The position numbers and the translations under genes are program-made. From positions 186,001-250,000 of the forward strand of contig NZ_CP009552.1 in NCBI RefSeq assembly GCF_000789255.1: a stretch of 64,000 bases of DNA, written 5' to 3'. Positions 15,303 to 31,439 of the stretch are shown piece by piece. This stretch comes from Geoglobus acetivorans (GTDB lineage Archaea > Halobacteriota > Archaeoglobi > Archaeoglobales > Archaeoglobaceae). The number at the start of each line of letters is the position of its first letter. Positions within the stretch are counted from its first letter, which is position 1. The notes under the pieces were generated by a model. That model was not told where the DNA came from. It saw only the letters and a program-made list of their open reading frames with translations, and did no database searches.

Positions 15303-15821
15303 ATGTTAGATCGAACCGACAGAGTAATGATCTTCATCGATGGCTCAAACCTGTTTCATGCCTGCAAAGCGTTCAGGCAGGGATTCAAAATAGATTACGA
15401 AAAGCTCAGAGATGCTCTTGCTGCTGGAAGGAAGATGATAAGGGCATACTTTTATGCCTCCTTCAATCCTGAAAATGAAGAAATAAAAGAGAGGCAAATC
15501 AGATTTTATAACGCTCTATAGGAGGAGGGTTTCCATGTTGTGACAAAACCATTGAGAAAAAGAAATGATGGTTTAATTGAGAAGGGCATAGACATTGCTT
15601 TGGCAGTAGACATGCTTTCTCTGGGTTTTCGCAAAGCCTATGATGTCGCCATACTGGTTAGCGGCGATGGGGACTTCATCCCTGCTGTGAAAGTAATTAA
15701 ATCTCTGGGGCTGAGAGTCGAGGTTGCAATGTTCAGGAACGCTTTGAATCCAGATTTGAAAAGGATCGCGGATAGGTTTATAGCACTTGATGAACTGGCT
15801 GATAAAATTGAGAAGAAATAG
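15303..15821 (+). pseudogene. NYN-domain (LabA/DUF88-like) gene with one in-frame stop
   Basis: ATG 15303 opens a 172-codon frame that is intact but for a single TAG at 15519-15521. Before the stop is FIDGSNLFHA, the first acidic motif of the NYN/PIN-like nuclease fold; after it, in the same frame, come VSGDGDFIPAV and a C-terminal helix. Both halves are needed for the active site. A CAG-to-TAG change would explain it. Known relatives act on RNA. A GTG at 15540 could restart, but the product would lack motif 1. Confidence 0.75.
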
Positions 15822-15829
15822 CTCTTATT

Positions 15830-15895
15830 GCGGGTGGCCGGCCCAGCAGGGCAGGTCTACGAGGACCGTCCTGGGGGAACGCCCCCGCCACCCGC
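15830..15895. ncRNA. Candidate GC-rich structured RNA
   Basis: 66 bp at about 80% GC in an otherwise AT-rich spacer. The ends form a perfect 9-bp stem (GCGGGTGGC with GCCACCCGC). Inside, three hairpins can be drawn: GCCC-AGCA-GGGC, GGTC-TACGAG-GACC and GGGGG-AACG-CCCCC, a cloverleaf-like shape. It lacks tRNA D- and T-loop consensus. In hyperthermophiles such GC islands often mark stable RNAs. Direction, promoter and function are unknown. Confidence 0.4.
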
Positions 15896-16041
15896 AGAGT
15901 TCTTATCAGAAATACTAACGATGCAACTGATATATATGGATTATGGTATATCATTGAGCATTTGAATATCCTTATTTATCATCTGAAGAGCTCAAATACT
16001 TCTCAGCCTCTTTTTCAAACTTCTCTTCCCCTGAAACGCCC

Positions 16042-16224
16042 TCACTGTAAACCCTTTCTTTCTATTTCTTCGAGCAGTTCGAGGATGCGTTTTCCTGTCG
16101 GTGTGAGGACATATACTTTCCTGCTCCTGCCTTTCCGTGTTTTACCAAGAGCTTTTCTCATAAACTCATTTTTTGTAAACCAGTCAGGACGATCGTTAAA
16201 ATTTGATTTTGGAAAAGAACACAC
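16042..16224 (-). pseudogene. Winged-helix regulator fragment
   Basis: 60 residues ending in RKVYVLTPTGKRILELLEE, the wing and last helix of a MarR/PadR-like winged-helix protein. The recognition helix that should precede it is missing, and the frame runs only a short way further upstream to a stop near 16275. It is therefore probably a truncated gene. It lies in the decayed stretch before tRNA-Cys. Confidence 0.4.
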
Positions 16225-16384
16225 TTTGAAGGGCCTTGGATAGTTTATGGTGTGGGTGAAAATCCATAGTCAATGTCCTCCCGCGGAAGATAAGAAATTG
16301 AACCCCTCGGTTGAAGTCATCATGATAAAAAAGTCAGAGGTACTCGGCCTTCTTGAGGGTAAGGATCCGAACTTAAGGTAAGAG

Positions 16385-16456
16385 AGCCAGGGCCCGGATT
16401 CGAACCGGGGTAAAGCGGATCTGCAGTCCGCCGCATAGCCCCTCTGCCACCCTGGC
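16385..16456 (-). tRNA. tRNA-Cys (GCA)
   Basis: 72 nt on the minus strand. Acceptor stem GCCAGGG/CCCTGGC, anticodon stem GCGGA/TCCGC with loop CTGCAGA giving anticodon GCA, T-arm CCCGG-TTCGAAT-CCGGG, discriminator U; CCA is not encoded. The TATA element TTTTAAATAA reads at 16481-16490, about 29 nt upstream. The IS copy 1 target duplication begins just beyond it. Confidence 0.95.
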
Positions 16457-16511: not shown

Positions 16512-17474
16512 TGTAGTTTCCTAAAATCATTTCCCACCATCAAACCACCTCCACGAATAACTCAATATTCTCTCAGGAGTCAACTTTCTCAAAAATGCTT
16601 TATAGGGAGTCTCCAGTTCATCTAAGTTGAGACTCATGTGGGGTCTTTTGTGATTGTACCACTCCATGAATTCATCTACTGTATCGAAATACTTGATTTT
16701 AGCTTCCAGCGTTCCATAGAACCTCTCTATCTTTCCATTCGTTTGTGGGTGATTCACCCTACCCACAATATGCTTAATTTCATTCTCTGCAAGGAATTTC
16801 TCAAATTTAGATACTCCTTTAGCCTTCTTCTCCCCTGCAGATGCGTAGAACTGAGTACCTCTATCCGTCAGGATTGATTCCGGCCTGCCATAATCATCCA
16901 TGGCTTCTTTTAGCACTTTTATGGCATTCTCAGATGTTGCTTTATCAAATACTCCGTAACCAGTAATCAGACGGGAAGCATCGTCCAGATAAGCAATTAT
17001 CCACTTCCCGTTATAGAAAAACCAGTCTGCATGCCATAATTCCATAGAGTGCTTTCTCTCATACCTTATCCACTTTTTACGCTTTTTCTTGTTCTTCTCC
17101 TCCTTAGCATAGCCGTTCATTCTCAACACTTCGTGTATTTTGTTCTTGCTTATTCTGTAACCTCTTTCCTTTAAGATTGTTTGGAGAACTACTGCATTAC
17201 ACCTGTACTCTTCATAGGCTTCTTTTATGGCTTCTATTTCTTCTTCTGATAGTTCTTTTTTAGGTCTACCTGGTTTCTTTGGCTTTGGTATTTCTCCAGT
17301 ATCTTTGTATTGCTTGTAGATCTGATTTACTCTTCTTGGTGTTATGTTTTCGATCTCTGCTATCTCCTTTGTCGGTGTACCCTTCTCTTTCTCTCTGATA
17401 ATCCATTTTATCGCTTTCTCGTCAAGTTTCACATGGGGGTTTGTTGAAGTGGGAAATAATTTCGGGAAAAGACA
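16512..17474 (-). mobile_element. 963-bp insertion sequence, copy 1 (ISA0963-like, IS481 family)
   Basis: Ends are TGT...ACA with imperfect inverted repeats, about 17 of 23 positions alike: TGTCTTTTCCCGAAATTATTTC at the transposase-start end and TGTAGTTTCCTAAAATCATTTC at the other. Length is exactly 963 bp, as in the ISA0963 element known from A. fulgidus. The flanking 15-mers differ from each other; each matches a flank of copy 2 in reverse complement. The transposase-stop end faces tRNA-Cys 55 bp away. Confidence 0.95.
16527..17432 (-). CDS. IS481-family transposase, copy 1
   Basis: 301 residues from a GTG inside the element (VKLDEK). A longer frame to 17483 only reads through the IS end into flanking DNA. 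An N-terminal helix-turn-helix (TPTKEIAEIENITPRRVNQI) is followed by a second HTH-like region and a basic linker (KKKRKKW). The integrase-core DDE domain has ELWHADW (Asp 1), ILTDRGTQF (Asp 2) and HPQTNGKIERFY (Glu). Encoded protein is identical to copy 3 and differs from copy 2 at one residue. Confidence 0.95.
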   Translation of the reverse strand: MKLDEKAIKWIIREKEKGTPTKEIAEIENITPRRVNQIYKQYKDTGEIPKPKKPGRPKKELSEEEIEAIKEAYEEYRCNAVVLQTILKERGYRISKNKIHEVLRMNGYAKEEKNKKKRKKWIRYERKHSMELWHADWFFYNGKWIIAYLDDASRLITGYGVFDKATSENAIKVLKEAMDDYGRPESILTDRGTQFYASAGEKKAKGVSKFEKFLAENEIKHIVGRVNHPQTNGKIERFYGTLEAKIKYFDTVDEFMEWYNHKRPHMSLNLDELETPYKAFLRKLTPERILSYSWRWFDGGK

Positions 17475-17489
17475 GGTGAGCATTCATAC
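17475..17489. repeat. Right flank of IS copy 1 (matches right flank of copy 2)
   Basis: GGTGAGCATTCATAC, the exact reverse complement of 51466-51480. It is the displaced half of the target duplication made by copy 2. Confidence 0.95.
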
Positions 17490-17752
17490 AGGATTTATAC
17501 AGGCTGGAAAAAATCATGCAGTCCAGCACCAAAAGTAGCAGAAAATTTCGCTGCTCATCTTTTTCCGAAAAAGCAGAAGCCTAAAAGAATTAGTTTCCAA
17601 GAATTGCAACAAAAAAGATATGTCAGAGAATTACCGGGTTGCCTCAATCTCCAGAAACTGCCCAAAATCTTAAACAGGCATGAAACACGGACAACATATC
17701 AGAGGCAACATTTAAATCTGAGTGATTGAAGATTTGTTTCAGAGGGTCAAAA

Positions 17753-18832
17753 ATGTACAAGTCATTTGAAATACAAAATTTCAGGTGTTTCAGAGAGTTT
17801 CACATAGACCAGCTAAGGAGAATTAACTTAATCGTTGGAATGAATAATGTCGGAAAAACTGCATTACTCGAGGCTTTGTTTATTCACTCCATCCTAACAA
17901 ACAAAAAAGTAATGGATTCTGAAAGGTTTGTATATGGATCTCTAAAATATATACTCTCAAAACTCTGGCTACTGCGTGGCCTAACTCCACATAAGATGCC
18001 CAGTTTCAGACGAAAAACGGAAATAATGCTGGAATCACTGTTTTTTGATTTCGATACGGACAGAGAGATGACATTTAAAAGTACAGAATATGACAAAGAA
18101 GAGCATAAACTAACAATAAAAGTGCTGAAACATGCAGGAATTAAAGACTACGCACATATAGACTGGATATACGAACATCCACAGGCATTGGAAATTTCTT
18201 TCAATATATCTTCATATATTTACCCCTACCCTCCTGAAATAAACCACAAAGCGTCCATATCGCCAAACAGAACGATAGACTCCGTGGTTTTTCTGGCATC
18301 ATCATACAGGCCAGATCCAACACTCGACTCAGAAAGACTTGGAAATCTCGAGGTGCAGGGAGAAGAAAATGTGATCGTGGATGCTTTAAAAATTATTGAA
18401 CCTCGCTTAAAAAGACTTTTTGTCAGAGTTGTAGATGAAGTGCCTATAATCCATGGCGACCTCGGTTTTAGATCCAGAATACCGCTACCTTTGATGGGAG
18501 AAGGGATGGTCAAACTTTGTAGCATAATTCTGGCAATAGCAAATGCTAAGGACGGGGTAGTTCTAATAGATGAAATAGAAAATGGATTTCATTACTCCAT
18601 TCAAAGCAAAGTATGGACAGCCATAGGAAAGGCAGCGGAAAGGTTCAACGTTCAGGTTTTCGCCACAACCCACAGCAGAGAATTTATTGTCGCAGCACAC
18701 GAAGCATTTTCAGATGACAAATACAATTTTAGACTGTATAGGCTGGAAAGAATAGGCGACGAAATAGAGGCCATACCATACGATAAAGAATCCTTGGAAG
18801 CCGCTCTGGAGATGGATCTGGAGGTAAGATAG
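17753..18832 (+). CDS. AAA ATPase of the OLD/AAA_15 type
   Basis: 359 residues from ATG 17753, with AGAGGGT upstream; the open frame extends to 17726. N-terminal FEIQNFRCFREFHID is the typical SMC/OLD-like beginning. Walker A is GMNNVGKTAL, an ABC-like region surrounds LPLMGEGMVKL, Walker B is VVLIDEIENGFH, and a switch ATTHSREF follows. No nuclease domain is fused. The TOPRIM-like DUF3226 gene starts 2 nt after the stop, so the two form a split OLD/PARIS-like pair. A TATA element lies at about 17709-17717. Confidence 0.85.
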   Translation: MYKSFEIQNFRCFREFHIDQLRRINLIVGMNNVGKTALLEALFIHSILTNKKVMDSERFVYGSLKYILSKLWLLRGLTPHKMPSFRRKTEIMLESLFFDFDTDREMTFKSTEYDKEEHKLTIKVLKHAGIKDYAHIDWIYEHPQALEISFNISSYIYPYPPEINHKASISPNRTIDSVVFLASSYRPDPTLDSERLGNLEVQGEENVIVDALKIIEPRLKRLFVRVVDEVPIIHGDLGFRSRIPLPLMGEGMVKLCSIILAIANAKDGVVLIDEIENGFHYSIQSKVWTAIGKAAERFNVQVFATTHSREFIVAAHEAFSDDKYNFRLYRLERIGDEIEAIPYDKESLEAALEMDLEVR

Positions 18833-18834
18833 TA

Positions 18835-19470
18835 ATGGCCAGAACCACCATCCTAACAAAGCCAATCATATTACTCGGAGAAGGAAAAGACGAGGAATTG
18901 TTCCTTAGGGCTTTGATAGAATACATGGGATTAGACGAATATATTCAGGTTCTGGAATATGGTGGCAAAAATAGACTACACCAGTTTATGAGAGCATTCG
19001 TGAACACAACAGGATTTAAGAACGTTAAAGCAATTGGTATTACGAGAGATGCTGATGATGACGGGTTTGAAAACGCGTTTAAGAGTGTTCGAAGTGCATT
19101 AGCTAGCGCCAACCTGCCAACGCCAGAAAGGCCCTTTGAAGTAGCCGGAAACAAACCGAAGGTGGCCATTATGATATTGCCAGACAACAGCTCGAATGGA
19201 AAGCTGGAGGACCTATGTCTGGAATCAGTAAAAAATGATCCTGCAATTGAATGCATAAATTCGTTTTTTCAATGTCTTAGTGAGAATAAAATCGAACAAA
19301 GAGATAAATCAAAAGCGAGAGTTCACGCATTTTTGGCTACGAGATACGAACCTGATAAAAGATTGGGCGAAGCTGCTAAAGCAGGATACTGGAATTTTGG
19401 CAGTCCTGCATTTAATGAGCTGCGCGGGTTTATCAGATTGCTTTCAGAATCCACAAAGACCATGGATTAA
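18835..19470 (+). CDS. DUF3226 TOPRIM-like protein
   Basis: 211 residues starting 2 nt after the ATPase gene. LLGEGKDEELFLRALIE gives the TOPRIM glutamate, ITRDADDDG supplies the Asp-x-Asp acidic motif, and VAIMILPDNSSNGKLEDL is typical of DUF3226. These are predicted metal-dependent nucleases or regulators of the OLD nuclease group. The close coupling to an AAA ATPase suggests that the two act together. In PARIS the equivalent pair is an AAA_15 ATPase with a DUF4435 TOPRIM protein. The defence role here is inferred. Confidence 0.8.
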   Translation: MARTTILTKPIILLGEGKDEELFLRALIEYMGLDEYIQVLEYGGKNRLHQFMRAFVNTTGFKNVKAIGITRDADDDGFENAFKSVRSALASANLPTPERPFEVAGNKPKVAIMILPDNSSNGKLEDLCLESVKNDPAIECINSFFQCLSENKIEQRDKSKARVHAFLATRYEPDKRLGEAAKAGYWNFGSPAFNELRGFIRLLSESTKTMD

Positions 19471-31356: not shown

Positions 31357-31439
31357 GCCGGGGTTGCAGAGAGGCACTGCGGTGGACTCGAGATCCACTG
31401 CCCGATGAGGGCACCTGGGTTCAAGTCCCAGCCCCGGCG
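31357..31439 (+). tRNA. tRNA-Ser (CGA)
   Basis: 83 nt. Acceptor GCCGGGG/CCCCGGC, anticodon stem GTGGA/TCCAC with loop CTCGAGA giving CGA, a long class II variable arm (TGCCCGATGAGGGCA), T-arm CTGGG-TTCAAGT-CCCAG, discriminator G. CCA is not encoded directly after it. TTTAAATA at 31323-31330 is the TATA element. AT-rich accessory genes follow. Confidence 0.95.

Follow-up and report, generated by a model that had tools for sequence, protein, structure and literature searches.

A small structured RNA gene convergent with NYN nuclease genes in archaea and an archaeal virus: a candidate RNA-protein toxin-antitoxin-like module

A 66-bp island of very high G+C content in the chromosome of Geoglobus acetivorans raises the question of whether it encodes a structured RNA and, if so, what that RNA might do. 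The element lies at 15830-15895 of the window (the whole 64,000-nt stretch analyzed here, from contig NZ_CP009552.1, the single contig of 1,860,815 bases that makes up the source genome). A preliminary description, made from the sequence alone, had picked it out as GC-rich, and its G+C content is indeed 0.79, whereas the 200 bp on either side have 0.44 and 0.37; a single one of the window's 63,934 66-mers reaches this value, which is the window maximum. The perfect 9-bp terminal stem claimed for it, GCGGGTGGC/GCCACCCGC, is also present, and on either strand the predicted fold of the 66-bp element is more stable than that of dinucleotide shuffles (z = -3.7 for the plus and -2.7 for the minus strand). 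Overlooked at that stage were the minus-strand sense of the RNA and its partner, a convergent NYN nuclease gene. The parts of the locus are as follows.

15830-15895, minus strand: RNA core, a three-way junction (minus-sense MFE, covariation, 16 G-U versus 0 A-C pairs)
15887-15895 with 15830-15838, minus strand: P1 helix
15882-15886 with 15873-15877, minus strand: hairpin Pa
15863-15868 with 15839-15844, minus strand: hairpin Pb
15896-15907, minus strand: conserved 5' leader GATAAGAACTCT, consensus about WTAANANCTC (alignments)
15931-15945, minus strand: putative BRE/TATA promoter CATAATCCATATATA, its end 35 nt before P1 (site scan)
15804-15829, minus strand: predicted 3' tail with T-tracts at 15816-15818 and 15804-15807, putative terminator
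15303-15821, plus strand: NYN-domain (PF01936) nuclease gene, convergent with the RNA, with an in-frame TAG at 15519-15521

Taken together as one gene model, 15830-15895 very likely forms the core of a small RNA gene, with a predicted length of roughly 80 to 95 nt, read from the minus strand and served by its own predicted archaeal promoter. The predicted 3' tail shares sequence with the final NYN codons, and the RNA probably ends inside that gene, because in the NYN-linked copies the T-run stretch coincides with the codons for the NYN C terminus or adjoins them.

A conserved fold and its copies

Neither ARAGORN nor Rfam placed a tRNA at the element, while the neighboring tRNA-Cys (16384-16456) was detected, in agreement with the preliminary view that this is not a tRNA. 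None of the Rfam 15 families reached its gathering score at the element in the window scan or in six relative loci. When Rfam was scanned permissively over 15700-16020, four matches came up, the best at E 0.7 and each well short of its gathering score. One minus-strand hairpin showed a weak local match to DUF3800-XI RNA (RF02975; 12.2 bits, E 2.6), far below the gathering score of that family, 37.8, and no DUF3800 gene was noticed. These scans rule out a tRNA or a known RNA family, and the element and its relatives add a covarying RNA family that is missing from Rfam 15. Elsewhere in the window, a tRNA-Ser (31357-31439, plus strand) was called by ARAGORN and not by the Rfam tRNA model at its gathering score.

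Fifteen copies were found in total, window included. The 14 further copies came from Archaeoglobaceae, Methanocellaceae, Methanothrix-type archaea, and one viral contig. Among 31 genomes searched at the DNA level, three had copies: one in the window's own genome (G000), two in G005, and one in G014. Searching 392 genomes of the phylum for the NYN protein and reading downstream yielded diverged elements in G196, G251, and G054 (two), and scans of GTDB contigs and IMG/VR added three Methanothrix-type loci and the viral contig. Model searches contributed G010, a second copy in G251, and G440. The nearest named relatives in the GTDB contig scan were Geoglobus MAG contigs. Weak copies may have escaped detection, because the model searches of the large sets scored no more than a few first-look candidates in each genome. 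Two 24-bit model matches at sequence ends in G138 and a 23-bit match in G143 were dropped as weak, as was a 25-bit match in G296 that fell within a long ORF resembling a helicase gene. No second viral copy emerged from pattern and protein scans of viral sequences, and there was no match among 50,697 phage records; 89 plasmid records matched, all at <60% identity and outside the RNA scan.

Instead of the cloverleaf-like shape first suggested, the copies share a three-way junction with a P1 of 8 to 9 bp, a hairpin Pa of 4 to 6 bp, and a hairpin Pb of 4 to 7 bp. Where three inner hairpins had been proposed, the conserved fold has two, and a third occurs in the G010 copy; Pb carries longer inserts in Geoglobus. 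In a minus-sense alignment of the seven Archaeoglobaceae copies, 97.0% of cells pair and 3 pairs are changed on both sides, and in a plus-sense alignment of seven copies the values are 96.9% and 4. Methanogen copies were misaligned by MAFFT, and those alignments were left out of the counts. Across 10 diverse copies aligned in the minus sense to model R2, P1 is 100% paired with 3 of its 9 pairs changed on both sides. The covariation score of this alignment is 0.262, versus 0.132 when shuffled (0 of 500 as high) and 0.049 to 0.087 for slid structures; the alignment was fitted to the model's own structure, which favors that structure, and because the sequences are related the shuffle results are not probabilities. 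Conserved and covarying copies in relatives, on which the earlier proposal of a structured RNA hinged, therefore exist.

Two copies stand without an NYN gene. One, at about 1501-1586 of L131 (G010), is a solitary RNA gene with the extra core hairpin; a further GC-rich inverted repeat lies between its promoter and leader, and a few bases beside its 3' tail resemble the end of an NYN gene. The other is the second G251 copy (L048 2291-2364, hereafter L048b), flanked by a HicA-like gene on one side and a 69-aa ORF on the other. Within L048 987-2364 the RNA copy is directly 3' of the HicA-like gene on the same strand, with no evident promoter of its own.

Strand of the RNA and its NYN nuclease partner

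Evidence that the RNA is read from the minus strand comes from its wobble pairs, a BRE/TATA-like promoter at constant spacing, and T-tracts; by these signs it is a convergent RNA gene and not a part of the NYN mRNA. In the minus sense, the helices of 14 copies hold 262 Watson-Crick, 16 G-U, and 0 A-C pairs; the 16 wobble pairs would turn into A-C mismatches if the plus strand were the RNA. Helices for this count were picked on the minus sense, which makes the sign-test value optimistic, and G440 was left out. When the minus sense is folded freely, the MFE structure of every one of the 15 copies is the junction, and plus-sense MFE structures are also branched in 14 of 15. For L131, which was in the training set of neither R1 nor R2, the minus model scored 51.8 bits and the plus model 46.4.

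The predicted promoter is independent support for the minus strand. When scored with a consensus taken from general knowledge, the best minus-strand BRE/TATA-like 15-mer (ties included) ends 33 to 37 nt before P1 in 11 of 15 copies. The four misses are G251a and the viral copy vir124, where such a site was read by eye at about 33 to 34 nt; G010, whose best promoter-like site is 63 nt away, beyond the extra hairpin; and L048b, which follows the HicA coding sequence. In all 15 copies the first T-run of at least 3 begins 11 to 29 nt after P1.

The alternative that the element belongs to the plus strand, as a 3'-UTR structure or terminator of the NYN mRNA, draws on its position 6 to 19 nt behind the NYN stop codon in 13 of the 15 copies, tail to tail with that gene, and on an MFE that is lower in the plus sense in 4 copies (window, G005a, G014, and G440) and lower in the minus sense in 11. 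We rejected it as very improbable: G-U pairing is seen on the minus sense only, and the promoter-like site keeps a constant spacing on the minus strand. One copy, moreover, follows the unrelated 69-aa ORF, whose only other homologue in 59 genomes, in G005, has no element behind it; the 69-aa neighbor looks incidental for that reason.

In three intact relatives, the copies that the Pfam scan covered, the partner protein carries the NYN domain PF01936 (E 7e-33 to 2e-36); the interrupted window copy was not among them as a whole. By sequence, the nearest solved structures are 2qip and 2een. The window gene is 95% identical to an intact G005 copy and has one TAG inside. The decayed region noted earlier is thus right in part, insofar as this adjacent gene is interrupted; the window genome retains the RNA gene beside a nuclease gene with a broken reading frame. 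The NYN protein of G196 has a four-residue gap at the conserved KGVD motif and so may be inactive.

The RNA gene and its link to one clade of NYN genes are well supported and, we judge, very likely real. All 12 uninterrupted NYN genes of the clade that were found have the RNA, across archaeal families, and the RNA occurs without an intact NYN gene in three cases (the window, G010, and one G251 copy). Conversely, the NYN gene of G018 is interrupted, and no RNA match was obtained in that genome. Of 59 genomes in the class, 5 hold both, 1 NYN only (G018), 1 RNA only (G010), and 52 neither (Fisher p = 7e-6, kinship ignored). Model R1 was run on 56 of the 80 NYN loci from the GTDB contig scan, the other 24 lying outside the run: the 10 nearest loci (41 to 100% identity) all had the RNA, and R1 found none at the 46 others, nor at 17 more distant loci from the phylum search (L011 and L013-L028). 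The NYN proteins with the RNA group together when 41 of these proteins are placed on a tree, with 2 changes of the label compared to 11.3 when shuffled (0 of 500 as low); this tree, whose deep branches are weak, leaves room for a single origin of the pair.

Could the RNA be independent, for example a regulatory small RNA that travels with NYN by linkage only? The two stand-alone copies, L131 and L048b (the latter beside its HicA-like gene), also fit such an RNA. The retention of the RNA by every uninterrupted NYN gene of the clade and the co-occurrence within the class speak against this explanation, which we hold to be decidedly improbable.

Carriage on mobile and viral DNA

The NYN-RNA pair moves as a unit, since homology of about 0.74 to 0.76 kb is found in different surroundings. 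The only block shared by L051 with L052 and L053 is about 0.76 kb and consists of NYN, RNA, and promoter, and the two G005 copies share about 0.74 kb. On the viral contig L124 (IMGVR_UViG_3300014502_000282), the pair adjoins major head protein and head-tail adaptor genes. An integrase fragment lies upstream of the pair in G014, and the L052 region holds type I restriction genes, as read from the sequences.

The preliminary suggestion that the element might be a relic of a mobile element end finds no support, the RNA and NYN gene being themselves the traveling unit. A transposable-element end or relic would accord with this mobility and with a nearby 318-aa ORF that resembles an IS transposase of the DDE/integrase type (16527-17483, minus strand, just past the tRNA-Cys). 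However, the window's genome contains a single copy instead of several that bound transposases, no transposase was noticed beside the relatives' copies, and the element has its own promoter-like site and a covarying RNA fold. We regard this origin as extremely improbable.

Other genes recur in these neighborhoods. Gene 3874-4368 of L124 resembles a gene beside a Methanocellaceae copy (L036 4812-5309). In the window, a short minus-strand frame at 16042-16224 looks like the remnant of a small winged-helix gene, and comparable genes, whole or fragmentary, are found repeatedly around the NYN-RNA unit in Archaeoglobaceae (L041 7794-8135; L048 3610-3939 and 4867-5148, both HxlR-like by Pfam).

Possible function and known systems

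The RNA gene, its fold, its sense, its pairing with NYN, and its mobility are shown computationally. The reading that we favor, at a probability of about 0.5, is an RNA-protein toxin-antitoxin-like module in which the RNA would bind and silence the NYN nuclease. It draws on the obligate pairing, on the constant presence of the RNA beside uninterrupted NYN genes and its persistence where NYN is broken or gone, on selection for the fold and not for complementarity, and on mobile and viral carriage. The NYN protein would be an RNase, and the folded RNA an inhibitor that binds it and keeps it inactive. If the RNA were lost or out-titrated (e.g., upon infection or loss of the element), NYN would cut cellular or invader RNA, and archaeal chromosomes, proviruses, and viruses would carry the pair as a module for defense or addiction. 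We infer the steps of expression, binding, toxicity, neutralization, and trigger, and an antitoxin function of the RNA stands at roughly even odds.

The PIN/NYN fold is one of the most frequent among archaeal toxins, and the nucleases that have it are usually paired with protein antitoxins. NYN proteins have nontoxin roles too, which counts against a toxin reading: in the available text of one report, a CRISPR-associated NYN ribonuclease is proposed to trim crRNA (PMC11346440). That protein resembles ours as an NYN nuclease acting on RNA, an activity predicted here; however, no CRISPR array or cas genes were noticed beside our loci, and the RNA is nonrepetitive. Such biochemistry, as far as that text describes it, keeps in play a working RNP with the RNA as cofactor, guide, or preferred substrate of NYN and not its inhibitor. 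Obligate pairing and a conserved fold would fit an RNP equally well, and by PADLOC these NYN proteins score against the defense models NYN and HEC-09. Yet a pure cofactor would not explain an RNA that persists where NYN is broken or absent (the window, L131, and L048b), and no guide is evident because Pb and the loops vary in length and sequence. Overall, we consider an RNP unlikely.

In type I toxin-antitoxin pairs with a convergent antisense RNA, that RNA overlaps the 3' end of the protein gene, and the protein is a small membrane peptide. The layout here is similarly convergent, and the predicted RNA tail overlaps the NYN 3' end, which makes antisense control by pairing with the NYN mRNA possible. 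In contrast to type I, the protein is a folded nuclease and the junction fold is conserved with compensatory changes, which duplexing would not need; the overlap is also limited to the predicted tail. Control of this kind is accordingly quite unlikely.

The toxin-antitoxin-like module that we favor has a functional parallel, by our inference, in type III systems (ToxIN, CptIN, and TenpIN), which likewise set a small endoribonuclease gene beside a structured RNA and are carried by phages or mobile elements. In the available text of PMC5086642, the type III RNA is an upstream tandem-repeat array, cotranscribed with the toxin gene and separated from it by a terminator. Here, an endoribonuclease partner is present in the form of the NYN domain (predicted activity), whereas Pfam gives NYN only and no ToxN-, CptN-, or TenpN-type toxin, and a single RNA copy with a three-way junction and its own promoter-like site lies downstream on the opposite strand, in place of upstream tandem repeats in a toxin operon. 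A direct repeat between leader and tail has its best window in one register in most copies; per-copy shuffles do as well in 7 to 482 of 500 trials, and as cleavage sites like those of type III arrays it is only suggestive and was set aside.

AbiF-RCd22, from a Clostridioides difficile prophage, offers a second parallel, in that the available text of PMC12373285 describes a toxic protein and a structured RNA that binds it and works in trans, again a phage-borne protein-RNA pair. It differs, according to the same text, in having an Abi_2/AbiF protein instead of NYN and an RNA motif that occurs twice, upstream of the gene. Because the architecture here differs (downstream, convergent, single copy, NYN fold), we do not place the NYN-RNA pair in the type III or AbiF-type systems. 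No description of the pair was found in the literature searched, with subscription papers and preprints outside its scope.

Tentatively, and with slightly less confidence than an even bet, we propose a new archaeal and viral class of RNA-protein toxin-antitoxin, in which a PIN/NYN nuclease would be inactivated by a single-copy, convergent three-way-junction RNA with its own promoter and a terminator in the last codons of the nuclease. If true, RNA antitoxins would gain a new nuclease fold as a target, and their range would come to include hyperthermophiles, methanogens, and an archaeal virus.

A further candidate defense system lies near the NYN-RNA locus of the window. This two-gene pair (17726-19470, plus strand) encodes an AAA-type ATPase that scores as AbiLi / PDC-M38A in PADLOC and a partner that scores as PDC-M38B.
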